Shown here piece by piece: positions 558 to 16,621 of a stretch of 64,000 nucleotides of DNA. The position numbers were made by a program, and so were the translations under genes. The DNA is from Halobellus litoreus (GTDB lineage: Archaea; Halobacteriota; Halobacteria; Halobacteriales; Haloferacaceae). Under the pieces are notes generated by a model that made no database searches, was not told where the DNA came from, and saw nothing but the letters and a program-made list of their open reading frames with translations. The DNA lies in assembly GCF_024464595.1 (NCBI RefSeq), contig NZ_JANHAW010000003.1:248001-312000 (forward strand). The letters run 5' to 3'. How positions within the stretch are numbered: position 1 is the first letter of the stretch; each line of letters starts with the position of its first letter.

Positions 558-1736
558 ATGACTTCGATCGATCAAGCGGTGGTACTCGCTGCGGGCGAAG
601 GTCGTCGGATCCGTCCGCTGACTCGGTATCAACCCAAACCGATGCTTCGAATCGCCGGTCGTCCGATACTCGAATACCCCCTGGACGCGCTCGCAGACAA
701 CGACGTCGAGTCCGTCGTCCTCGTGGTCGGCCACGCGAAAAACCGGATTCAAAACCACTTCGAGAGTAGCTATCGGGACCTCGAAATCACGTACGTCACG
801 CAATCGACGCAGTTGGGAAGCGGTCACGCGCTCCAGACCGCCGAGGAGTACACCGACGAGGAGTTCCTCGTCGTCAACGGCGACAACGTCATCGACGCGG
901 CGATGGTACGGGAAACCGTCGATCGATACGTCGATTCCGCCGCCGCCGCGTGTCTCGCCGTCGCGGCCTCGAAGCGGACGGCGGAGTACGGGACGGTCGG
1001 GATCCGCGACGGCGTCGTCGAGCGGATCGACGAGGACGGGCACGGCGGATCCGCCCGCGTGAATACGGGCGTGTACGCGTTCGATCGGCAGATATTCCAC
1101 GCCCTCGACCGCACTGACTTCGAGGACGGCGAACGCCCGCTCACCGGTGCGATCGACGAGCTCGCGGGCGACGTCGTCGCGGCGACGCCCAACGGCGTCT
1201 GGTTCGATCCGTCGTACCCGTGGGATCTCCTGTCGACGAACCGGACGCTGATTTACTCGCACTCCGAGCTCGTCGCGGCCGACTCTCCCGTCGACGAGTC
1301 CGCCAGGGTGCACGATTCGGCGGTCGTCGGCGAGAACGTGCTCATCGGTCCGGACTGCAAGGTGTCCGCCGGTGCGGTCGTCAGTGACGGGACGTGCCTC
1401 CACGCGAGTACGATCGTCGGGGAGAACACGGTCCTGGAAGGGTCCATCGTCGGGCCCGATTCGCGCGTCGGGTCCAACGCCGTCCTCCGGGACACGATCG
1501 TCGGCGGCGGCGCGACGATCGGCGACGGCACGGTCTCGCCGGGGCGATCCGCGACGCTCGTCGTCGACGGCACCGAGTACGTCGATCGACGGCTCGGCGG
1601 GGTGGTCGCCGACCGCGCGACGGTCGGATCGAACGTCACGGTCAGGCCCGGGTGTCGAATCGGACCGCGAGGGATGATCGCTTCCGGAGTCGATCTCAGA
1701 AACGACGTTTCCGAGGGCGCGGAGGTGCTGGGATAA
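558..1736 (+). CDS. glmU: GlmU-like bifunctional sugar-1-phosphate nucleotidylyltransferase
   Basis: The 392-residue protein has an N-terminal nucleotidyltransferase domain with LAAGEGRRIRPLT, the downstream Lys-Pro (QPKPM) and metal-site GDN. Its C-terminal left-handed beta-helix consists of hexapeptide repeats from about residue 240. This is the architecture of archaeal GlmU/Sta-type enzymes, which acetylate glucosamine-1-phosphate and transfer UMP to give UDP-GlcNAc. The stop TAA overlaps the ATG of glmS by one base, so the two are translationally coupled and belong to one pathway. Substrate specificity within the family (Glc, GlcN or GalN phosphate) cannot be fixed by eye; the neighbour favours GlcN-1-P. 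Confidence 0.85.
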   Translation: MTSIDQAVVLAAGEGRRIRPLTRYQPKPMLRIAGRPILEYPLDALADNDVESVVLVVGHAKNRIQNHFESSYRDLEITYVTQSTQLGSGHALQTAEEYTDEEFLVVNGDNVIDAAMVRETVDRYVDSAAAACLAVAASKRTAEYGTVGIRDGVVERIDEDGHGGSARVNTGVYAFDRQIFHALDRTDFEDGERPLTGAIDELAGDVVAATPNGVWFDPSYPWDLLSTNRTLIYSHSELVAADSPVDESARVHDSAVVGENVLIGPDCKVSAGAVVSDGTCLHASTIVGENTVLEGSIVGPDSRVGSNAVLRDTIVGGGATIGDGTVSPGRSATLVVDGTEYVDRRLGGVVADRATVGSNVTVRPGCRIGPRGMIASGVDLRNDVSEGAEVLG

Positions 1737-3547
1737 TGTGCGGTATCACCGCCCGGGTCGGGCGCGGCGACGCGGTCGAGGAACTGGTTTCGGGACTCCG
1801 TAACCTCGAGTACAGAGGATATGACTCCGCCGGCATCGCCACCGCAAACGCCGACGGCCTCGACGTCGTCAAGCGGGAAGGCGAGATCGACGCTCTGTGC
1901 GACGCGGTCGAGACGGCTTCGATTCACGGGACGATCGGCATCGGTCACACGCGTTGGTCGACCCACGGTCCGCCGACTGACGCGAACGCGCACCCACACA
2001 CCGACTGTCGGAACCAGGTCGCAGTCGTTCACAACGGCATCATCGACAACTACGCCGAGCTCAAATCGGAGCTCTCGACGCACGAGTTCACGAGCGAGAC
2101 GGACACCGAGGTCGTCCCGCACCTCATCGAGGAGTTCCTCTCGGCCGGCTATTCGCCTGAGCAGGCGTTCAGACGAACGATCGATCGGATCTCCGGAAGC
2201 TACGCGATCGCCGCCGTGTTCGAGGGCAGCGACACGGTGTTCGGCACTCGGAGCGGCTCGCCGCTGGTGCTCGGTCGGTCAGCCGACAGCTACTACCTGG
2301 CCAGCGACGTGCCGGCTTTCCTCGAATACACCGACGAAGTCGTCTACGTTCAAGACGGCGACGTGGTCGCGATCCGCCCGGACGGCTACACGATCACCGA
2401 CTCCGACGAGGAGACCGTCGATCGTCCGGTCGAGACGGTCGAGTGGGATCCCACCGACGCCGGCAAGGGCGGGTACGACCACTATATGCTCAAAGAGATC
2501 TACGAACAGCCGACCGCGCTCAGGCAAACGATTCGCGGCCGGAGCAACCAACTCGACAACCGCGCGGAACTCGAAGCGCTCCCTCGCGGGGTGTTCTCAG
2601 ACGTGGAGTCGGTCCACCTCGTCGCGATGGGGACGTCCTACCACGCGGCGATGTACGCACGGACGTTGCTCGCGGATCGGGGGATTCCCGCACAGGCGTT
2701 CCTCTCGGGCGAATACGGCTCCAACCCACCGCCCACGGGCGATCGGACGCTCGTGATCGCGGTCTCTCAGAGCGGGGAGACTGCCGACACCCTGTCGGCG
2801 ATCCGAAGCGTGCAGGGAACCGGGGCGCAAACGCTCGCCGTGACGAACGTCGTCGGATCGACGCTCACCCGAGAGTGCGAAGACACGGTGTACATCCGCG
2901 CCGGGCCGGAGATCGGCGTCGCGGCCACCAAGTCGTTCTCCGCGCAGGTCGCGACTCTGGTGCTCCTGAGCGAACGGATGAGCCAGGACATTCAGGGCGG
3001 GACGCCGAGAGCGACCAGCGATCTGCTCGACTCGATCGCGGTGCTCCCCGACGACGTCCAGCGCATCCTCGACGAGTCGACCGCCGAATCGGTCGCGAAG
3101 GCGTACCACGACAGCGACTCGTACTTCTTCATCGGTCGCGGCATCGGTCACCCCGTCGCGCTCGAAGGGGCGCTGAAATTCAAGGAGATCACGTACGATC
3201 ACGCAGAGGGGTTCTCCGCCGCGGAACTGAAACACGGGCCGCTGGCGCTCGTTACGGAGCGGACTCCTGTCTTCGCGATTTTCACCGGCCGAAACGACAC
3301 GAAAACGCTACACAACGTCAAGGAGGTGCGGGCCCGCGACGCGCCGGTCGTGGCTGTCGCCGCGGACGGGTTCGGTGAGATCGACGAGTACGCCGATCAC
3401 GTCCTCCGGATTCCGGACACCCACAACGACGTCGCCGGCGTCCTGGCCAACGTCCAGCTCCAACTCGTCTCGTATCTCGCCGCCGACGAACTGTCACGGC
3501 CGATCGACAAGCCGCGTAACCTCGCCAAGAGCGTCACTGTAGAGTGA
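1736..3547 (+). CDS. glmS: glutamine--fructose-6-phosphate aminotransferase (isomerizing)
   Basis: The protein is 603 residues, close to the roughly 609 of Escherichia coli GlmS. It begins MCGI, placing the class II glutaminase nucleophile at Cys2. Two SIS sugar-isomerase domains follow: one near residue 297 (AMGTSYHAA) and one near 463 (GRGIGHPVALEGALKFKE). The C-terminus PRNLAKSVTVE is the near-universal GlmS tail. It converts fructose-6-phosphate and glutamine to glucosamine-6-phosphate in the cytosol. The start is fixed by the need for Cys2 and by the 1-nt overlap with glmU; an in-frame upstream extension would bury the catalytic cysteine. The product feeds the WecB/WecC branch at 10229-12621. 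Confidence 0.96.
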   Translation: MCGITARVGRGDAVEELVSGLRNLEYRGYDSAGIATANADGLDVVKREGEIDALCDAVETASIHGTIGIGHTRWSTHGPPTDANAHPHTDCRNQVAVVHNGIIDNYAELKSELSTHEFTSETDTEVVPHLIEEFLSAGYSPEQAFRRTIDRISGSYAIAAVFEGSDTVFGTRSGSPLVLGRSADSYYLASDVPAFLEYTDEVVYVQDGDVVAIRPDGYTITDSDEETVDRPVETVEWDPTDAGKGGYDHYMLKEIYEQPTALRQTIRGRSNQLDNRAELEALPRGVFSDVESVHLVAMGTSYHAAMYARTLLADRGIPAQAFLSGEYGSNPPPTGDRTLVIAVSQSGETADTLSAIRSVQGTGAQTLAVTNVVGSTLTRECEDTVYIRAGPEIGVAATKSFSAQVATLVLLSERMSQDIQGGTPRATSDLLDSIAVLPDDVQRILDESTAESVAKAYHDSDSYFFIGRGIGHPVALEGALKFKEITYDHAEGFSAAELKHGPLALVTERTPVFAIFTGRNDTKTLHNVKEVRARDAPVVAVAADGFGEIDEYADHVLRIPDTHNDVAGVLANVQLQLVSYLAADELSRPIDKPRNLAKSVTVE

Positions 3548-3610
3548 CTACCTGTCGAGTCAGCCGATTCTTGCGGTGCCGTTTCGCGGCGGGCGATCTC
3601 GGCGAGAGAG

Positions 3611-3653
3611 ACGGACGGTTCCTGGCGGTTGGATCGTCGACCCGACCGTCCGT
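3611..3653 (+). repeat. 9-bp inverted repeat, possible 3' stem-loop of glmUS
   Basis: ACGGACGGT at 3611-3619 is perfectly complementary to ACCGTCCGT at 3645-3653, with a 25-nt loop. It is followed by a weak T-containing stretch (CAATTTG). It could end or stabilise the glmU-glmS message. Archaeal terminators often need only a U-tract, so this role is uncertain. Confidence 0.4.
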
Positions 3654-3862
3654 CAATTTGATAACACCTGAACCCATACGTTAGCACGGGACCCTGGTCG
3701 CGAGATAACCAAACAGCTTGTGTGCCAGCAACTGTGTGCCACGGTCCGGGTCCCGTCTTTACTCTCCGAGCGACGCGTCAGTGATTCGCCCAGGGGACCT
3801 CCGGTCGCACCGCGAAAGCTACTTTTCCAGCAACTGAGGGTATTCCGCCATCAGGCACCGAC

Positions 3863-3870
3863 TACTAAAC
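3863..3870 (+). promoter_or_regulatory. TATA-like element for the epimerase gene
   Basis: TACTAAAC is centred about 28 nt before the ATG at 3895, the spacing expected for a leaderless haloarchaeal transcript. Confidence 0.4.
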
Positions 3871-3894
3871 CGGCTGTCGCCCCGACTGGGCGGT

Positions 3895-4794
3895 ATGGAA
3901 GCTCGGCGCGTCTTGGTCACGGGCGGTTCCGGGTTCATCGGCGGGGCGCTCGTCGACTCCCTCCGGTCGGACACGGACGTTCGGATCTTGGATGTCGACC
4001 CCGGCGCGAGGGCACCCGGCGATGTCGAATTGATCGAAGGCGACGTTCGCGATCCGGAGACGGTCGCGGACGCGGTCGAGGGCGTCGACGTCGTCTTTCA
4101 TCAGGCTGCCTTGGTCAGCGTCGCGGCGTCGGTCGACGATCCGCTAGAGAGCCACACGATCAACGCTACCGGCACGCTCCAGGTACTGGAGGCCGCCCGA
4201 CGACACGACGCCCGGGTCGTCCTCGCGTCGAGCGCTGCCGTCTACGGCGATCCTGAACGCGTCCCGGTCTCGGAAACCGACCGACTCGTTCCGCGGTCGC
4301 CGTACGGACTGGACAAGTTGGCCTCCGATCACTACGCGCGACTGTACCACGACCGCTACGGGCTGGAAACAGTCGCGCTTCGCTACTTCAACGTCTACGG
4401 GCCCGGACAGTCCGGCGGCGATTACGCCGGCGTTATCGACGTCTTTCTCGAACAGGCCCGGAACGGCGACCCGATCACGGTCCACGGCGACGGCGCGCAG
4501 ACGCGGGATTTCGTCCACGTTCGAGACGTCGTTCGCGCGAACCGCTTGGCTGCCGAAACCGACGACGTCGGCGTCGCCTACAACGTCGGAACCGGCGAGT
4601 CGACGAGCATCGTCCGACTCGCCGAGCGGATCAGAGCGGCGGTCGGATGCGATTCACCTATCGTTCACACGGACGCCCGCGAGGGAGACGTCAGCCACAG
4701 TCGGGCGGACCTCTCCCGGGCCCGGTCGCGACTCGGCTACGAACCGACCGTGGGTCTCGACGCCGGGCTCGAAACCCTCGTCGACGAGACGTAG
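3895..4794 (+). CDS. NAD-dependent epimerase/dehydratase (GalE-like)
   Basis: This 299-residue extended short-chain dehydrogenase has the N-terminal Rossmann motif TGGSGFIG (residues 8-15). It also has the LASSAAVYGDP strand and the catalytic YxxxK (SPYGLDK). The downstream RYFNVYGPGQ and GDGAQTRDFVHVRDV motifs are typical of UDP-hexose 4-epimerases. It most likely interconverts UDP-Glc/UDP-Gal or their N-acetyl forms for surface glycans. The length is on the short side for GalE (about 310-330). The exact nucleotide sugar cannot be told from motifs. A TATA-like element 28 nt upstream supports this start. Confidence 0.88.
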   Translation: MEARRVLVTGGSGFIGGALVDSLRSDTDVRILDVDPGARAPGDVELIEGDVRDPETVADAVEGVDVVFHQAALVSVAASVDDPLESHTINATGTLQVLEAARRHDARVVLASSAAVYGDPERVPVSETDRLVPRSPYGLDKLASDHYARLYHDRYGLETVALRYFNVYGPGQSGGDYAGVIDVFLEQARNGDPITVHGDGAQTRDFVHVRDVVRANRLAAETDDVGVAYNVGTGESTSIVRLAERIRAAVGCDSPIVHTDAREGDVSHSRADLSRARSRLGYEPTVGLDAGLETLVDET

Positions 4795-5841: not shown

Positions 5842-6855
5842 TCACTTGTAGCCTTCGCTCGCCAGGTGGTGGTTCATCACTGCCTGAATTCCGTCGACGA
5901 ACGCGTCGGCGTCGACGCTCTCGACCTCTGAGGTCCGTTTCCGAACCGTCTTGTTTCGGATCTCCCACTCGCGGACGAACTCCGACTCGATCCCGTGTGA
6001 TTTGATCCGATCGATCAGCCTGCGCACCGTTTTCTCGTCGGCCTCTGTCACCTCCGTCGGCGTGATGACGCCGCGCCTGAGCGCGCAGACGACGACGCCC
6101 GAGCTGAAGTCGCCCTCCGCGAGCTCGCGTTCCCAGGTCGTGATCCAGTTGCCGATCCGGGCCATCTGCTGGAGGTCACAGATCAGACTCCGGAGCGCGC
6201 CGTACTCGTCGCGGTCGAACGACGGCGAGTGCATCAGATCGATCCCCGCGTACGGGAACATCGCCATATTGTACGCGTCGTGTCGCTCCGCTTCGGTCCG
6301 GTTCGCGATCATCGGTTGGTCGTTCAGCAGTCCCGAATACTCCATCGCATCGAACGTCTGTCGGAGGTCGTAGTCGAACACGTCCGCGTAGTCCCCGTAC
6401 TGGGGGGCTTCTCGGAGACCGCCGTCGATCTCGCCCCACAGGTCCGCGAGCAACTCTAGGACGGGTGCTTCGAGGCCGGCACGTTCCAGGTCGATGTCTG
6501 GAAATCCGTCGACGCCGAACGGGATGCGACGGCCGATCTCGAACGTGGGCCGGTCGCCGCTCCGTTCTGCGAGGTCGTCGAGGACGGTCACGAAGATCGT
6601 CAAGAGCGTTTTTCGTTCGTACACGTCCGCTAACGCCCCCTTCGACACCGAAGAAAGGGTGAACTCCTCGAAGAGGTTGTGGATCCACTTCCAGAGAAAG
6701 CGGTCTCTGTCGCCGATGACCCGGTCGCAGCGGTTCGCGAACTCGCGAACGCTCGGTGGTAGCTCGACGTTTTCGACCGACCGCTTGTACTCCCCCATAT
6801 TCACGTCCGTTCCCCCGCTGATTGTGGTGACCTGCCCGCGAGCCTCGTGTGCCAT
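5842..6855 (-). CDS. class I terpene-synthase-like protein
   Basis: The 337-residue, mainly helical and soluble protein lacks a signal peptide. Residues 93-97 read DDLAE, matching the Asp-rich DDxx(D/E) metal motif of class I terpene synthases. Residues 236-244 read NWITTWERE, matching the second NSE/DTE motif (N-x-x-x-S/T-x-x-x-E) with Trp in place of the usual Asp. The following AEGDFSS also resembles bacterial sesquiterpene cyclases. The length fits that family (300-370). I infer cyclisation of a prenyl diphosphate, or a degenerate homologue. The gene diverges from a Bat-type regulator across 277 AT-rich nt. A TATA-like element 30 nt upstream supports this ATG. The family assignment rests on motifs read by eye. 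Confidence 0.6.
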   Translation of the reverse strand: MAHEARGQVTTISGGTDVNMGEYKRSVENVELPPSVREFANRCDRVIGDRDRFLWKWIHNLFEEFTLSSVSKGALADVYERKTLLTIFVTVLDDLAERSGDRPTFEIGRRIPFGVDGFPDIDLERAGLEAPVLELLADLWGEIDGGLREAPQYGDYADVFDYDLRQTFDAMEYSGLLNDQPMIANRTEAERHDAYNMAMFPYAGIDLMHSPSFDRDEYGALRSLICDLQQMARIGNWITTWERELAEGDFSSGVVVCALRRGVITPTEVTEADEKTVRRLIDRIKSHGIESEFVREWEIRNKTVRKRTSEVESVDADAFVDGIQAVMNHHLASEGYK

Positions 6856-6880: not shown

Positions 6881-6888
6881 GTTAAATC
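6881..6888 (-). promoter_or_regulatory. TATA-like element for terpene-synthase-like gene
   Basis: On the minus strand the sequence reads GATTTAAC, centred about 30 nt before the ATG at 6855. It fits a leaderless promoter within the AT-rich divergent spacer. Confidence 0.45.
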
Positions 6889-7132
6889 TTTTGTTCACGC
6901 ATTAAGCATAGTTAAAAAAGTATGATTTTGTGACTATCATAAATATTCTGGTAACGTATCGTATGTATTTCCGCCAGATAATGAACGATTTACAGAACGT
7001 GAGAGTCTGGATTTCGGCTTTTATGGCCGTTATCTATCATCCAATTGTATAATGATGTGTGAATATGACGGAATATTTATCAATATCCGTGGGCACTGAA
7101 CGACGTGTCGCGACACCGCAGGTGGGGGCCGA

Positions 7133-9827: not shown

Positions 9828-10082
9828 ATGGAGCCAATGACACCGGACTTGGTTGACGACCTCTGCTGGCACATCGTCACGACGGTCGCCGACGAACGCG
9901 ACGTAGAACCCGAACAGATCGACGACAGACTGTACGACGTGATCGACGTCGAATCGCTGGCACACCTCGTCGATCAGGCGCGCAGTTCCGAGTCGATCGA
10001 CCTATCCGTTTCATTTCGGATGGCCGGGTGTTTCGTCACGGTGACCGGCGAAGAGACCGTCCGGGCGACCGCTCCGAACTGA
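9828..10082 (+). CDS. HalOD1 domain protein
   Basis: The 84-residue protein consists almost entirely of a HalOD1 domain. An N-terminal helix (DLVDDLCWHIVTTVAD) is followed by DRLYDVIDVESLAHLVDQ and a beta strand pair ending FRMAGCFVTVTGE. HalOD1 is common in haloarchaea, alone or fused to response regulators, and its biochemical role is not settled. An upstream TTG at 9768 would add 20 residues, including two cysteines (CPC). I prefer the ATG at 9828, but the longer form is possible. It lies 157 nt after the Bat-type regulator on the same strand. Confidence 0.75.
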   Translation: MEPMTPDLVDDLCWHIVTTVADERDVEPEQIDDRLYDVIDVESLAHLVDQARSSESIDLSVSFRMAGCFVTVTGEETVRATAPN

Positions 10083-10228: not shown

Positions 10229-11521
10229 TCACACTCGCCGGGCTTCGAACCCCGCGTTTCGCCACCGTTCGAGATCGAGGATGGCCCGCGTATCGACGAC
10301 GTTCGGGTCCGCCATCAGTTCCCGAAGCCGATCGGGGTCGAGTTCGGCGAACTCGTCGTGATCGGTGGCGATCACGATAGCGTGCGCGTCCGTCGCAGCC
10401 TCCTCCACGTCCAGGAGTCGCAGCGTCGGATCCCGAACGTGCGGATCGTGGATCGCCACGCCGGGTGTGTCGAGCGTTCCACCGTCCGTCGCGGGCGCCG
10501 AGGGCTTTTGCCCGTGCTGTAACTCGCGGACCAGCTCCAGACCTGGACTCATTCTGGTGTCGTCGACGTTGCCCTTGTACGCGGCTCCGAACACGGCGAC
10601 GCGCTTCTCATCGAGGTCGGAGAGCAACTCCTCCAGGAGGTCGACGACGAACTCGATCATCCCGTCGTTGACCGCCCGCGCCGTCGGGACGAGATCGAGC
10701 GCGTCGGAGTCGGCCCCGAGGAACCACGGATCGATCGGGAGGCAGTGGCCGCCTACGCCGGGCCCCGGTTGCAGGATGTCGACACGCGGGTGCGCGTTGG
10801 CCATCTCGATCGCCTCCCGTGAATCGATCCCGTAGTCGTGTGCGATCCGGGCGATCTCGTTCGCCAGTGCGATCTCGACGTCGCGGGCGGTGTTCTGGAT
10901 CAGTTTCACGAACTCCGCCGTCGTCGGGCCCTCGGTCGAGCGGATCGCACCGTCCACGAACGACTCGTAGAGCCTGACCGCCGCGGTCGCGGAGCGGGCG
11001 TCGACGCCGCCGACGATCCGGTCGTTCTCCCGGAGTTCGGCGATGACGTCTCCCGGGAGCACGGTCTCCGGACAGTGCGCCAGTCCGAAATCGCGCCCGG
11101 CTGCCAGTCCGGACTCCGACTCGATGACGGGCTTCAGGTGTCTCTCGGTGGTTCCCGGCGGGACGGTCGATTCGAGGATCACGGTGTCCCCCTCCCGGAG
11201 GACTGTACCGACTGTCCGCCCGGCGGCGGTGACGTAGTCGAGATTCGCCTCCCGTCGGTCCTCGTCGAACGGTGTCGGCACGCAGATCACGTGGTAGGCC
11301 GCGGCCGCGACATCGTCGACGATCCGCAACCGTCCCGACTCGACCGCCCGCGCGACGAAGGCCTCGAGTCCCGGTTCGTCGAGGCTGACGTCGCCGTCTC
11401 TGAGTTCCCGGGTCAGGACCGGATCCGTGTCGTAGCCGTACACGTCGTGGCCGTGCGTCGCCAGCATCGCGGCGGTCGGTAACCCGACGTATCCTAACCC
11501 GTGGACGCAGACCGAACTCAT
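10229..11521 (-). CDS. wecC: UDP-N-acetyl-D-mannosamine dehydrogenase
   Basis: The 430-residue protein belongs to the UDP-glucose/GDP-mannose dehydrogenase family. The N-terminal NAD fold begins VCVHGLGYVGLPTAAMLA. The catalytic cysteine is Cys260 in GVGGHCLPIDP. The C-terminal UDP-binding domain contains VFGAAYKGNVDDTRMSP. The four-electron oxidation of UDP-ManNAc to UDP-ManNAcA is inferred mainly from its coupling to wecB, since the ATG overlaps the wecB stop by 4 nt (ATGA). Without that context, UDP-Glc dehydrogenase would be an alternative. It is the last gene of the GT2-wecB-wecC operon and converges with the HalOD1 gene. Confidence 0.9.
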   Translation of the reverse strand: MSSVCVHGLGYVGLPTAAMLATHGHDVYGYDTDPVLTRELRDGDVSLDEPGLEAFVARAVESGRLRIVDDVAAAAYHVICVPTPFDEDRREANLDYVTAAGRTVGTVLREGDTVILESTVPPGTTERHLKPVIESESGLAAGRDFGLAHCPETVLPGDVIAELRENDRIVGGVDARSATAAVRLYESFVDGAIRSTEGPTTAEFVKLIQNTARDVEIALANEIARIAHDYGIDSREAIEMANAHPRVDILQPGPGVGGHCLPIDPWFLGADSDALDLVPTARAVNDGMIEFVVDLLEELLSDLDEKRVAVFGAAYKGNVDDTRMSPGLELVRELQHGQKPSAPATDGGTLDTPGVAIHDPHVRDPTLRLLDVEEAATDAHAIVIATDHDEFAELDPDRLRELMADPNVVDTRAILDLERWRNAGFEARRV

Positions 11522-12621
11522 CGCGCGACCTCCCGGGACTTGGTTTCCAGCGGCAGCGACTGCAGGATCCGTTCGGCGGCGTCACCGTCTCCGAAGGGGT
11601 TCTCCCAGTCGTCGCCTCGCAACAGCATCTCCGTCGCGCTCGCGACGATCTGGCCGGGATCGCACGAACTGAGGCGGTTCGCTCCGACGTCGATAGTCTC
11701 GGGCCGTTCGGTGTTGTCCCGCATCGTCACGCACGGGGTGCCCAGGATACACGCTTCCTCCTGAACGCCCCCCGAATCTGTCAGGATCAACTCCGCTGTC
11801 GAAGCGAGCCGCAGGAAATCGAGGTACTCCAGCGGCTCTACCGCCCGTATCGGATCGGGGACCTCGATTCCGAACGTCTCGATTCGGTCGCGTGCGCGGG
11901 GGTGGACCGGATAGATCACGTCGGCGTCGTGTGCCTCGGCCGCCCGCTCGACGCCTGCCAGTAGGTCTCTGAACCGGGCCTCGTCGTCGACGTTTTCCTG
12001 TCTGTGCGCCGTCATCACGAAGAAGTCGCGGTTCTCGATTCGGAGGTCCGCGAGGACGGTGCTCTTCCGTCGGGCGATCTCCCTGTTCCGGAAGAGGGCG
12101 TCGACCACGGTGTTCCCGGTGACGGTGATTCGGCGTTCGGAGAGGCCCTCGTCCAGGAGGTACTTCTTGCTCTGCTCGGTCGGCGCGAACAGGTGGTCCG
12201 AGACGTGGTCGGCGATGACCCGGTTGGTCTCCTCCGGCATCGATCGGTCGAAACTCCGCAGGCCCGCTTCGACGTGGCCCAACTCCGCGTCCATCTTGCT
12301 GGCGGCGAGCGCGCCGGCCAGGACGCTGTTCGTATCGCCCTGGACCAGGACCACCTCCGGGGCAGTCTCCGCGAGCGCCCGCTCGACGCCGATCAGCATC
12401 TCGCCGGTCTGCTCGCCGTGCGACGACGAGCCAACGCCGAGGTCGTAGTCTGGCTCCGGCAGTTCGAGTTGGTCGAAGAAGACCGAATCGAGGCTGTCCG
12501 AGTAGTGCTGTCCGGTGTGGACGATCGAGTAGTCGACCTCCAGGCGGTGACACGCCTGAACGACCGGGGCGAGTTTGATGATCTCCGGTCTCGTTCCCAA
12601 GACGAACGTGACGTCGGTCAT
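11518..12621 (-). CDS. wecB: UDP-N-acetylglucosamine 2-epimerase (non-hydrolysing)
   Basis: The 367-residue protein has the WecB/MnaA signatures: N-terminal FVLGTRPEIIKLAPV, the VQGDTNSVLAGALAA strand, GHVEAGLRS, and the C-terminal TDSGGVQEEA. It interconverts UDP-GlcNAc and UDP-ManNAc. The start at 12621 is set by the conserved N-terminus and by GGAGGAGGG six nt upstream; an in-frame opening up to 12783 would add an Arg-rich tail that only shadows the GT2 gene. It overlaps both neighbours by 4 nt, so the three genes form a tight operon. The UDP-GlcNAc would come from GlmS/GlmU. Confidence 0.94.
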   Translation of the reverse strand: MTDVTFVLGTRPEIIKLAPVVQACHRLEVDYSIVHTGQHYSDSLDSVFFDQLELPEPDYDLGVGSSSHGEQTGEMLIGVERALAETAPEVVLVQGDTNSVLAGALAASKMDAELGHVEAGLRSFDRSMPEETNRVIADHVSDHLFAPTEQSKKYLLDEGLSERRITVTGNTVVDALFRNREIARRKSTVLADLRIENRDFFVMTAHRQENVDDEARFRDLLAGVERAAEAHDADVIYPVHPRARDRIETFGIEVPDPIRAVEPLEYLDFLRLASTAELILTDSGGVQEEACILGTPCVTMRDNTERPETIDVGANRLSSCDPGQIVASATEMLLRGDDWENPFGDGDAAERILQSLPLETKSREVAR

Positions 12622-13733
12622 TGTGAACCCTCCTCCGCCGACGCGGCCGTGGTTCCGCCGTCCTGGTATACCTCGAGGCCAGAGGACACGTGTGGAAGGT
12701 CCTCGGTTGTCTCGTCCGCGACCTCCCGTCTCGAGTAGTCGACCTTCCGGACGAGCCCCTCGTTTTCCGAGACGTCGAACCACAGTCCGAGCACGATCAG
12801 TAGCCCGCCGAGCGTGCCGACGGCGACCGACACCATCCCGCCGAGGAACGAGTCCACCGCGGGCGAAGACAGCGCGTGCAGTCCACCGGCGACGCCGGCG
12901 AGCGTCACGACCGCGCCGAGCACGTAACAGGCGATCAGCGGGTGGAACATCCGGAGGACGTACGATCGGGTGAGTCGCTCGACGAAGTTCCGGCCCAGGA
13001 GGAAAGAGACCCGCGGGATGAACGTCCAGTAGTTGATGCCGCTTTGCTCGTCCGCGTAGACGGCCGGGTGTGAGACGTCTGCGATCGGTTCCCTGTTGAC
13101 GTTGAGCGCGAAGAGCACGTGGTTCAGGAACCCGTACCGATCGTAGAGACGTTCGAAGCCGATGGTCCGCAACCCCTCGTTCGATATCGCCGTGAAACCG
13201 TTCTGTGGATCGGACAGCTCCCAGTAGCCGCTGGCGATTCGCGTCAAGAGGGTGAGCGAGACGTTTCCGAAGAGCCGCCAGTTCGACATCGAGGCGTAGT
13301 CCTCGCGCGAGGACAGCCGGTTTCCCTTCGAGTAGGTGACGTCACCGCTCGTGACGGGCGCGAGGATTCGATCGAGGTGGGCCGGGTCCATCTGGCCGTC
13401 CCCGTCCATCACGGCAGCCACGTCTATCCCGTCTTCGAGCGCGCACGCGTAGCCAGTCTTCACGGCCGCCCCCGCGCCCCGGTTGCGCTCGTGTTGTACG
13501 GTGACGACGCGCGCTGCAGCATCCCTCTCATCACCGCCGACGGCGCTGGGCCCGGCCTCGGAGTTGATACGGCGGGCCGACTCTCGTACTTCCTCCCAGG
13601 TGCTGTCGGTCGAGGCGTCGTCGACGGCGTAAATACGGTCGACGTACGTGGGCATCGTCTCGAGTACGTCACCCACCTGACCGGCTTCGTTGTACGCGGG
13701 GACGACGACGCCGATAGTCTGTCCGTCGTACAT
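12618..13733 (-). CDS. GT2 family glycosyltransferase with C-terminal membrane segments
   Basis: This 371-residue protein has a GT-A domain beginning IGVVVPAYNEAG, with AVDDASTDST for nucleotide binding and a catalytic metal motif AVMDGDGQMDP. It resembles polyprenyl-phosphate (dolichol-phosphate) hexosyltransferases. Two hydrophobic segments follow near residues 265-285 and 295-320, then an acidic cytosolic tail. It likely charges dolichol phosphate with a sugar at the membrane. The ATG at 13733 is preferred over a TTG two codons earlier. Its 3' end overlaps wecB by 4 nt, implying that it acts with the ManNAc/ManNAcA precursors. The transferred sugar is not known. Confidence 0.88.
   Translation of the reverse strand: MYDGQTIGVVVPAYNEAGQVGDVLETMPTYVDRIYAVDDASTDSTWEEVRESARRINSEAGPSAVGGDERDAAARVVTVQHERNRGAGAAVKTGYACALEDGIDVAAVMDGDGQMDPAHLDRILAPVTSGDVTYSKGNRLSSREDYASMSNWRLFGNVSLTLLTRIASGYWELSDPQNGFTAISNEGLRTIGFERLYDRYGFLNHVLFALNVNREPIADVSHPAVYADEQSGINYWTFIPRVSFLLGRNFVERLTRSYVLRMFHPLIACYVLGAVVTLAGVAGGLHALSSPAVDSFLGGMVSVAVGTLGGLLIVLGLWFDVSENEGLVRKVDYSRREVADETTEDLPHVSSGLEVYQDGGTTAASAEEGSQ
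12628..12636 (-). promoter_or_regulatory. ribosome binding site of wecB
   Basis: On the minus strand GGAGGAGGG ends six nt before the ATG at 12621. It lies inside the end of the GT2 gene and decides the wecB start. Confidence 0.6.
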
Positions 13734-14109
13734 CGTCAACTCGCGACCTCGTTCGGCGTCGCGAGTCTCCCCGACGTCCAGTTCGCGAAGCGGGGTCGGT
13801 ACGGGCGAACGGTCTCGGTACTGAATCGGTGCATATAGGATCCTCCATAGGTTCCCGACGCGCGCGGTTCGATCACCGCCAACACGGCGGGGCGTATCCG
13901 TACAACCGCTCTATGTGGGTTTTGTTATACACTGCCTCAGTGACCGCCCGGGGACGGAGTCGCACGTCGGCTCCGGTGGTCGGAGTTATCGAACCGAGAG
14001 ACCACTGACACGATATTCGGCGGTTTCAGGCGCATTAGCCGATCGATCTTCGGTTAACAGGACACTTACTCAGCGGATCGAAAGCCTCGGCCAGCGGGTC
14101 CTCACACCC
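13734..14109. other. intergenic region upstream of the GT2-wecBC operon
   Basis: This is 376 nt between PadR and the operon, both minus strand. It holds GTTTTGTTATAC at 13919-13930, shared with the PadR promoter. It also holds a minus-strand frame of 32 codons (13736-13834) ending two nt before the GT2 ATG. An imperfect 6-7 bp inverted repeat lies at 13975-14006. If 13919-13930 is the promoter, the operon has a leader of about 165 nt. Confidence 0.5.
13919..13930 (-). promoter_or_regulatory. 12-nt element shared with PadR promoter
   Basis: GTTTTGTTATAC here is identical to 14418-14429. On the minus strand it reads GTATAACAAAAC, a plausible TATA box for the operon. As a duplicated sequence it may also be an operator for PadR. 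Confidence 0.4.
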
Positions 14110-14394
14110 TTACAGATTCACGTATTGGTCTTCCCACTCTCGCCGGGACCTGAGGCTTTCGGTCCCCTTCTCCGTGATCTCGTACACGTTCGTCCGACGG
14201 TCGCTCTGTCCCTTTTCGACGTATCCCTTGTTCACGAGCGTATCCAGGTTCGGGTACAATCGCCCGTGCGTGATCTCGCCGATCACCTCCTGCAGTTCCG
14301 TTTTGATCTCCTGACCCGATGGACTGGACAGTCCCACGATCACGTAGAGCAGGTCCCGTTGAAAACTGGTGAGCTCGAAAAGCGGTTCGGACAT
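14110..14394 (-). CDS. PadR family transcriptional regulator
   Basis: The 94-residue protein is a single winged-helix domain of PadR type. A helix-rich start (ELTSFQRDLLYVIVGL) is followed by SGQEIKTEL, the recognition region GEITHGRLYPNLDTLVNKGYVEK, and the wing RRTNVYEITEKGTESL. Stand-alone PadR proteins of this length are common in haloarchaea and usually repress their own and neighbouring genes. It is transcribed toward the GT2-wecBC operon. Its promoter element at 14418-14429 recurs upstream of that operon, so it is the natural candidate regulator. The ligand is unknown. Confidence 0.92.
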   Translation of the reverse strand: MSEPLFELTSFQRDLLYVIVGLSSPSGQEIKTELQEVIGEITHGRLYPNLDTLVNKGYVEKGQSDRRTNVYEITEKGTESLRSRREWEDQYVNL

Positions 14395-14818
14395 ATTCCT
14401 GTGCTCCGCCCGTGAGTGTTTTGTTATACGGAACTAAACGCCCGACCGGTAGTACATATCCAGCCCTTTGTGATCGACGTCGCAGAACAGACGCTCCCAC
14501 GGTTAAAAACAGTGGTCGGCGGAGACATTCGGACGCCGGTTGTCTATCTATTAGCTACGTATTTACCGGCGTCCGGTCCGTACAGCTGCTCTCGTCTCTA
14601 ACGACGGGGAGACGATACCAACGACATCGATTCTGACAGCGGCCGGTCGGCAACGACGTTGATATCGGCAGCCGCCGGTCTGGAGGGAGACAACCTCCCG
14701 AACCGACGGCGATGCCAGGATCGTCGCGTCACATAGAGATCCGAGGAAGTCGTCTCGACGGCCGCGAGATCGGAGTAGTCTAATACTAACTAACCCCAGG
14801 TGACTAGTCAGACCGAGT
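14395..14818. other. divergent intergenic region between PadR and the DUF457-like gene
   Basis: This is 424 nt without a convincing gene. The PadR promoter element lies at 14418-14429. The rest is GC-rich without strong repeats until the AT-richer CTAATACTAACTAACC near 14780-14795, a possible promoter region for the plus-strand gene at 14819. Confidence 0.5.
14418..14429 (-). promoter_or_regulatory. PadR promoter/possible auto-operator
   Basis: On the minus strand GTATAACAAAAC is centred about 30 nt before the PadR ATG at 14394, the spacing of a leaderless TATA box. The same 12-mer occurs at 13919-13930. Confidence 0.45.
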
Positions 14819-15412
14819 ATGTGGCCTTGGGAACACGCACTCTTCGCATACGTGTGTTACTCGCTGTATCTCAGGGGACGCTATCGATCCCGACCCGCCG
14901 ATTGGCCGGTCGTCGCGCTCGCGGTGGGATCCGCCTTTCCGGATCTGGTCGACAAGCCGCTCGCGTGGCAGTTCGGGTTTTTCGAGAGCGGATACGCGGT
15001 CGCACATTCGGTGTTCGTGGCCGTTCCGGCTTCTCTCGTCCTCGTCGCGGTCGCGAGACGATACCGACGTGAACGGATCGGAATCGCCTTCGCCACCGGC
15101 CATCTGCTCCATCTGGTCGGCGACGTGCTCCCCGCGTCGCTCTCGTCTCAAACGCTGTATCTCACGCCGGTCCTGTGGCCGATCGCTCCCAGCCGAGTTA
15201 TCGTCGATCGGGGATCGTTCGCCGACGGCGTCCGAAGCCTCCTGACCGAGTACGTCGCACAACTACTCACCCTGGACCTCACGGCGGTGATCGCGTTGCA
15301 GATCGGATCCGTCATCGTCGGACTGGTACTGTGGTTCGCCGACGGATTGCCCGGGCTGATGCTCGTGCGCTCCACGGTCGGGCGGACGATGAAATACAGG
15401 CGGAGTGACTAA
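14819..15412 (+). CDS. membrane-bound metal-dependent hydrolase family protein (YdjM/DUF457-like)
   Basis: The 197-residue protein has several hydrophobic segments. It has conserved His/Asp positions typical of the YdjM/DUF457 family: WPWEHALFAY at the start, GSAFPDLVDKPLAW, AHSVF and GHLLHLVGDVLP. These residues are thought to bind metal in the membrane. The true substrate of the family is not established, although it is often labelled metal-dependent hydrolase. The gene stands alone, divergent from PadR and followed by 279 nt before the first GT of the island. I am confident of the family and not of the reaction. Confidence 0.7.
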   Translation: MWPWEHALFAYVCYSLYLRGRYRSRPADWPVVALAVGSAFPDLVDKPLAWQFGFFESGYAVAHSVFVAVPASLVLVAVARRYRRERIGIAFATGHLLHLVGDVLPASLSSQTLYLTPVLWPIAPSRVIVDRGSFADGVRSLLTEYVAQLLTLDLTAVIALQIGSVIVGLVLWFADGLPGLMLVRSTVGRTMKYRRSD

Positions 15413-15656
15413 ACGAAACCGTTGAATCGGTGTGTGGACTCATTCTCAAACGACGGGTGGGACGTCGGCGTCGAGTCACGGATGCACCAGACTGAGGAGC
15501 ACCGAATATCGGGCACCTGGACCGATCGCGGGCTCGGTCCCGCCCGTCGCTGAAGTGTTCCGATGTTAGCGAAACCCAGGAGATCCGGGCTTGACCCATC
15601 GCCATCGAACTGAATCCACGAGGATTAGATATAAAAAAAAAATAACGATAGGGACG

Positions 15657-15666
15657 AATTAACAAA
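15657..15666 (+). promoter_or_regulatory. TATA-like element for GT2 gene at 15692
   Basis: AATTAACAAA is centred about 31 nt before the ATG at 15692, in an AT-rich stretch that also contains a run of ten A (15630-15639). Confidence 0.4.
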
Positions 15667-15691
15667 TTGACCCATCTTCCAAGGGACGCAT

Positions 15692-16621
15692 ATGCCACCG
15701 ATCATCTCGGTCATCATTCCCACCTACTATCGGAACGAGCTTCTTTCAAGAGCGATCGAGAGCGTCCTCAGACAGGACTATGACCCCGTCGAGCTGATCG
15801 TCGTCGACGACTCAGGAGAGGGGAACGCCGATCCCGTCTTACAAAGATATGACGGAGTGAAGCGAATCACTCGCGATCAACCCGGTCACTGGAATGCGGC
15901 ACTAACTACTGGAATAGAGGCCTCGACGGGTGAATACATCCAATTCCTCGATGATGACGACGAGCTCCTTGAGGGGAAGCTTACGAAGACCGCTGAAATA
16001 CTGCAAGAGAATCCGGACGTGGGTGTCTCATACTGCGGCGTCATCAGGGGCGACGAACGACACTACCCGAAGCCGAGTGTCCGCGGCGACTTTCTCGAGG
16101 AAGCCCTGGCTTTCCAAACGTTCCCACTGTGGACGGGATCGATGCTGATGAGGCGGGACGTGTTGATCGATTGCTTGCCGCTCGCGGGGATGGGCGAAGA
16201 CGACGATCTGGATATCATACTGGGGGACACGGACCTGAAGATCGAACTGGCTCGGCGGACTAAAGCCGACTACGTGGACGAGTGTCTCGCCTTTTATCGT
16301 CAGGAGACGAATAGTCTATGGACCGGACCCAACCGATTCGAGATTGTGAAAAAGACAACCCAACACCAACGAGAACTTTACGATCGGTATCCAGAAATCC
16401 GACGGAATCTCCTCTCCTCTTGGCATCAAAAGCAAGCGGTCTACTGGCTCGAAAAGAGATTCTGGTCTCCGAAGGCCATTTCCCACTTCCTCAGGGGCGC
16501 CTACTACGCCAATGGGCTTACGAACCGGGCAAAATGCGGGGCTGGAGCTGCGGCGTCGATCCTGGGTCGTCCGGGCTGGAACGCCGCCGAAAAAGTTCGA
16601 AATTCACTCCATCACGGTTGA
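15692..16621 (+). CDS. GT2 family glycosyltransferase
   Basis: This is a 309-residue GT-A glycosyltransferase. It has the N-terminal SVIIPTYYRNELLSRAIESV, then VVDDSGEGN, and the metal motif FLDDDDELLEGK near residue 90. A conserved late segment contains WTGSMLMRRDV. No clear transmembrane helix is seen, so it should act at the inner face of the membrane on a lipid-linked acceptor. Its codon use is less GC-rich than that of the wec operon, suggesting a different history. It starts the plus-strand run GT2, ABC flippase, Wzx and lies 65 nt before the ABC gene, probably in one transcript. Donor and acceptor are unknown. Confidence 0.9.
   Translation: MPPIISVIIPTYYRNELLSRAIESVLRQDYDPVELIVVDDSGEGNADPVLQRYDGVKRITRDQPGHWNAALTTGIEASTGEYIQFLDDDDELLEGKLTKTAEILQENPDVGVSYCGVIRGDERHYPKPSVRGDFLEEALAFQTFPLWTGSMLMRRDVLIDCLPLAGMGEDDDLDIILGDTDLKIELARRTKADYVDECLAFYRQETNSLWTGPNRFEIVKKTTQHQRELYDRYPEIRRNLLSSWHQKQAVYWLEKRFWSPKAISHFLRGAYYANGLTNRAKCGAGAAASILGRPGWNAAEKVRNSLHHG

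Follow-up and report, generated by a model that had tools for sequence, protein, structure and literature searches.

Terpenes are the chemistry behind scents and resins, and a gene of the haloarchaeon Halobellus litoreus raises the question of whether its product belongs to the enzymes that make them, and under what control it stands. The gene lies in a window of 64,000 nucleotides, the whole stretch of DNA that we analyzed, and a likeness of its product to class I terpene synthases had been proposed from the sequence. The features of the gene and of its regulatory neighborhood are collected in Table 1.

Table 1. Coordinates of the synthase-like gene, its motifs, the upstream elements and the divergent regulatory genes in the window.
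Feature	Position	Strand	Remarks
Class I terpene-synthase-like gene, 337 aa	5842..6855	minus	stop codon included
DDLAE, residues 93-97, first (Asp-rich) metal-binding motif	6565..6579	minus	
NWITTWERE, residues 236-244, NSE-type second metal motif	6124..6150	minus	Asp replaced by Trp
Promoter-like element GAACAAAAGATTTAA (BRE/TATA-like), about 27-41 bases before ATG	6882..6896	minus	conserved, 10 intergenic regions
Operator-like composite ACCAGA-N7-TGATAGTCAC, imperfect TGA-N3-TCA palindrome at -84	6930..6952	minus	
Divergent PAS-GAF-BAT-HTH_10 regulator, 845 aa	7133..9670	plus	Pfam BAT 1.1e-30, HTH_10 4.4e-19, GAF_2 8.6e-16, PAS 3.7e-14
HalOD1 output-domain protein, 84 aa, downstream of regulator	9828..10082	plus	PF18545 1.6e-16

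Metal-binding motifs, fold and family membership

Bacterial class I synthases carry a DDXX(X)D motif near residue 90 and an NSE motif near residue 230 (PMC8450962). In the window protein, DDLAE provides the Asp-rich motif DDXX(X)D/E near residue 90, the NSE metal ligands N, S/T and E near residue 230 are present as N236, T240 and E244, and the spacing of the two motifs is consistent with that of the bacterial enzymes (PMC8450962). Both motifs were found at exactly the residues of the 337-residue protein where the original prediction had placed them. In a 40-member alignment of relatives, D93, D94, N236, W237, T240 and E244 were each conserved in 40/40 sequences and E97 in 39/40, so that DDLAE and NWITTWERE are not chance occurrences. 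The original prediction named no strand; the reading frame is on the minus strand, and the plus strand across 5842-6855 is interrupted by stops. The N-terminus is kept among relatives, which supports the ATG at 6855 as the start codon, and a conserved promoter block ending at this ATG supports it further.

An AlphaFold2 model computed with a 12-row alignment (A1) as input showed the all-helical class I fold (pLDDT 83, pTM 0.84). When the model was compared with the PDB using Foldseek, the best 50 of 109 matches at E≤0.001 were all class I isoprenoid synthases (probability 1.00), including FPP synthases and class I cyclases such as aristolochene, hydropyrene and geosmin synthases. For these best 50, TM was moderate (about 0.47-0.6) and rmsd was high (7-10 Å). 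Since FPP synthases ranked level with the cyclases among them and TM was moderate, the fold search by itself cannot separate the two. The sequence does separate a cyclase-type enzyme from FPP synthases: the window protein has an NSE-type triad and a single DDxxE, without the second of the two DDxxD motifs that are a trait of trans-prenyl diphosphate synthases, and neither it nor the alignment members matched PF00348 (polyprenyl_synt) among the Pfam families listed.

Searched alone, the window protein matched PF19086 (Terpene_syn_C_2) with an E of 0.0018 and 18.5 bits, against a gathering cut-off of 23.7. The same family was matched by 12/12 close relatives (best 4.1e-6) and by 25/29 diverse relatives (best 6.9e-8), and its curated cut-off was exceeded in nine haloarchaeal genomes, the relatives reaching 35.5 bits. 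No NCBIfam family matched the window protein, and PDB sequence searches gave no useful match for it. An hhalign comparison of family alignment A2 with nine canonical terpene synthases placed DD on DD and N236 to E244 on the NSE triad (E 0.011). The outcomes that the original prediction had named as refuting it did not occur: the modelled fold was the all-helical class I fold, and profile searches found Terpene_syn_C_2 in relatives with no clear match elsewhere. The class I fold and a kinship with terpene synthases are supported by the model and these alignments, and the original interpretation was largely right. The protein appears to be part of an archaeal branch of terpene-making enzymes that is both divergent and widespread.

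The diphosphate site compared with known synthases

Our canonical comparison set comprised nine synthases: epi-isozizaene synthase (the sequence used agrees with 3kb9 except at the first residue), six plasmid-borne genes from bacteria and two canonical genes from haloarchaea. E175, R179, Y190, R194, N240, D241, S244, E248, N256 and an RY pair were invariant in all nine, and the sensor R194 lay 46 residues before the NSE Asn. At the positions aligned with this pyrophosphate sensor, members of the haloarchaeal family share no conserved Arg, in either the 40-member alignment or the profile alignment; an Arg at 191 is restricted to the window protein's own branch and a few other members. The C-terminal RY pair is absent from the haloarchaeal family. 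W237 occupies the NSE Asp position in all 40 relatives and this Trp is invariant in the main family, with methanogen-side members such as L079, L084 and L085 retaining the Asp. At the position of the Asn at NSE+8 the family has Ser, which is S252 in the window protein.

The original prediction had seen the Trp correctly, but its suggestion that metal binding could be altered needs correcting. In selinadiene synthase the NSE Asp hydrogen-bonds the pyrophosphate-sensor Arg and is not a metal ligand, and the sensor Arg hydrogen-bonds both the diphosphate and the NSE Asp (PMC8450962). Given this invariant Trp and the simultaneous lack of the sensor Arg, the change would concern diphosphate recognition. 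Judged from the alignments, the metal ligands are intact, and what the family lacks is the sensor Arg together with the Asp that it pairs with. Together with the missing RY pair and NSE+8 Asn, this points to a divergent class I branch.

The closest known enzymes are bacterial PF19086 synthases (epi-isozizaene, pentalenene and selina-4(15),7(11)-diene synthase). The window protein shares with them an all-helical class I fold, a single domain of about 340 aa, an Asp-rich motif near 90, an NSE-type triad near 236 and E-x3-GD after the triad. It differs from them in the Trp for the NSE Asp, in the lack of the RY pair and of the sensor Arg 46 residues before NSE, and in the Ser for Asn 8 residues after NSE, and it is too distant for PDB sequence matches. 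Like the archaeal family, SmTS1, the sestermobaraene synthase of Streptomyces mobaraensis, naturally lacks the sensor Arg, NSE Asp and NSE+8 Asn, which are replaced there by Gly, Gln and Arg, respectively, and it is still active (PMC8450962). SmTS1 is a bacterial GFPP cyclase and serves as a precedent only.

Two other loci, L114 (Halocatena marina) and L115 (Actinarchaeum halophilum), carry Terpene_syn_C_2 in the same archaeal order as the window protein. Unlike it, they have the full canonical motifs, including the sensor Arg and the RY pair, and an N-terminal SRPBCC domain, and no tblastn match at E 1e-6 connected them with the window protein. They are a separate branch of terpene synthases in haloarchaea. 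On these plasmids (L114:5494-7878 and L115:2154-7856) the SRPBCC-fused canonical synthases are followed by a polyprenyl synthetase, and in Actinarchaeum a second SRPBCC-synthase gene lies nearby. To judge by its title, a preprint by Samusevich et al. (bioRxiv 10.1101/2024.01.29.577750), cited as reference 48 of MARTS-DB, reportedly deals with terpenoid biosynthesis in archaea. Given that title and the canonical haloarchaeal synthases, archaeal terpene synthases as such are already known. Of the divergent diphosphate site and the linkage to sensors we found no description in the literature searched, where most subscription papers lay outside coverage.

The family was present in 73/243 genomes and 31/77 genera of the order, with a paralogue at 37% in the same genome. 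The haloarchaeal plasmid records that we found label the gene "hypothetical protein", as does the record of the 85% identical Halobellus limi gene, WP_103992445.1. The earlier expectation that a dedicated cyclase would be notable in haloarchaea is not borne out by this distribution, nor by the canonical synthases of Halocatena and Actinarchaeum. The family is more widespread and more divergent than was thought at that point, and has a regulatory context that had not been seen. Members also occur outside the order in the same phylum, some of them clearly degenerate. Distant or fragmented members outside the order (L088-L091 and L096-L098), some without DDxxE or with internal stops, may be read as decaying copies or as having a different function.

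Neighboring regulators and the intergenic region

The synthase gene is linked to regulators. In the window its divergent neighbor is a Bat-type regulator whose PAS-GAF-BAT-HTH_10 architecture was confirmed by Pfam. Among close relatives with wide flanks, the pair was kept in 9/9 and the HalOD1 gene in 7 of the 9 nearest; genes for sugar-nucleotide enzymes and glycosyltransferases flank the pair and vary between these relatives. At E≤1e-120 the regulator was found in 3/243 genomes of the order, and these same three also have the most similar synthase genes. The flanking genes around the module (558-4794 and 10229-16621, with an order that varies among relatives) include two nucleotidyltransferases, a GlmS-like protein, an epimerase, a UDP-sugar dehydrogenase, a WecB-like protein and a GT2.

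In more distant members the neighbor changes but is often still a regulatory gene: a Bat-type regulator with HalOD1 lies upstream of the synthase gene on the same strand (L047 and L049), PAS histidine kinases adjoin the gene in three orientations (L048 and L051; L012 and L053; L058 and L061), and HVO_A0261/FilR1-type HTH regulators lie directly downstream of it (L011, L052, L055, L056 and L057). Mapping the histidine-kinase label onto a 45-member tree takes 7 changes, and well-supported branches force at least 3 of them. Over 31 loci, kinase, Bat or DUF7344 genes occupied 20/62 places at ±1 and 2/180 at ±3 to 5. For non-redundant loci the counts were 11/42 (±1) versus 2/120 (±3 to 5), with a p of 6e-6 that is optimistic because the counted families were chosen partly for recurring near the synthase gene. 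Genome-wide there were 28 HTH_10 and 40 HATPase_c matches in 3.86 Mb; as a rough baseline, if about one gene per kb is assumed, a random gene has a 3-4% chance of such an immediate neighbor. No regulatory neighbor was found for about a third of the members, the paralogue in the same genome included. One branch of synthases (L054, L057, L060, L103, L104, L106 and L107) has a metallo-beta-lactamase-fold gene as neighbor, which lies beside ribosomal protein L21e in L054 and probably also in L060.

Among the neighbors scanned with Pfam no P450 was found beside the gene, and no prenyl synthase was found beside it in haloarchaeal loci. The exception is L014, at 30% identity the most distant relative used in A1, where genes for a SAM methyltransferase, the relative of the synthase, a 7TM histidine kinase and also a polyprenyl synthetase form a group on one strand. 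It is the only locus that unites precursor supply, synthase and sensor. The group (L014:177-5912) lies on a contig of 30% G+C, also encoding MraZ, in a bin labelled Lysobacteraceae; the contig is probably mis-binned, and in view of its G+C we did not take it as evidence for a Lysobacteraceae host. In Halobellus limi, a "prenyltransferase/squalene oxidase repeat" protein and a methyltransferase next to the orthologue were considered as a class II cyclase pathway and rejected. The repeat protein (L117:14168-15328) is without DXDD and weakly matches GH127/GH88-type toroids; these match better, so its record name is misleading for terpenes. Both proteins fit the surrounding polysaccharide locus.

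Alignment of ten intergenic regions revealed a block resembling BRE/TATA, GAACAAAAG-TTTAA, which lies 27-41 bases ahead of the start codon; the corresponding element of the window would be expected to serve as the promoter. TGA-N3-TCA(C) occurred at -82 to -84 in 9/10 intergenic regions of close loci, and ACCAGA or close variants preceded it in most of the ten. The composite, of which the genome holds one exact copy, is a candidate operator for the neighboring regulator. A wider regulon was considered and rejected: the genome has no second exact copy, and its 52 near matches are only a modest excess over the 37 of the reversed control. The intergenic regions did not contain a Halobacterium Bat UAS pattern. 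According to a passage of PMC3184054, Halobacterium Bat induces bop under low oxygen and light. By analogy, a light or oxygen cue for the synthase would be a reasonable first guess.

Function of the family

The explanation that we favor, with a probability of about 0.72, is that the product of the gene is a metal-dependent terpenoid synthase of a divergent class I type, whose expression is probably controlled by the divergent regulator via the -84 site. Mg2+, held by D93, D94 and E97 and by N236, T240 and E244, would bind a prenyl diphosphate, which in haloarchaea would most plausibly be GGPP or FPP, perhaps GFPP. This substrate would be ionized and the carbocation quenched to a cyclic or linear terpenoid. 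Other conserved residues would take over the diphosphate contacts that sensor Arg, NSE Asp and RY pair normally make, with R222, R233, N196 and K337 as candidates. The PAS-GAF-BAT-HTH_10 regulator would probably control expression of the synthase through the operator-like site. Cyclization by the window protein is putative, and other class I lyase reactions are possible.

One possibility is a class I enzyme that does not cyclize, and ionizes a prenyl diphosphate to yield a linear alcohol or alkene or to transfer the prenyl group to another acceptor. This would suit the rebuilt diphosphate-sensing residues and the rank of prenyl diphosphate synthases beside cyclases in the best 50 of 109 fold matches. 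However, where such an enzyme could have another Asp-rich motif the protein has one of NSE type, and alignment members had no polyprenyl_synt match among the Pfam families listed; we consider this reading unlikely. That the enzyme elongates chains as a prenyl diphosphate synthase is very improbable: FPP synthases are among the best structural matches, but the second DDxxD and a polyprenyl_synt match are lacking, and in the L014 gene group a polyprenyl synthetase is encoded separately. It is scarcely credible that the protein is not an isoprenoid enzyme and that motifs and fold match are coincidental, since the Pfam matches in relatives, the fold and the profile alignment agree independently, even though the window protein alone falls under the Pfam cut-off.

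A protein of class I fold without catalytic activity, which would bind an isoprenoid diphosphate and signal its level to the regulators next to it, could also explain why PAS, BAT, histidine kinase and FilR1-type regulators recur beside the gene and why the canonical diphosphate contacts are lost. This is quite improbable, as mere binding need not preserve the metal-ligand positions, which are invariant or nearly so over 30-100% identity. One may further speculate that the family is the synthase half of an archaeal terpenoid signaling system, the terpenoid being the signal sensed by the neighbor. The synthase would then be encoded next to its cognate receptor, a PAS-containing Bat-type regulator or histidine kinase, in a LuxI/LuxR-like manner. 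We regard this signaling reading as rather unlikely.

About a third of the order's sampled genomes carry this terpene-synthase-like family, which the haloarchaeal plasmid records that we found label "hypothetical protein". With its metal sites retained and most of the known diphosphate contacts lost, the family tests which class I features are truly needed. The sensor and switch genes beside it hint at a regulated or signaling terpenoid in archaea, and their repeated linkage makes such a regulated, possibly signaling, archaeal terpenoid directly testable.
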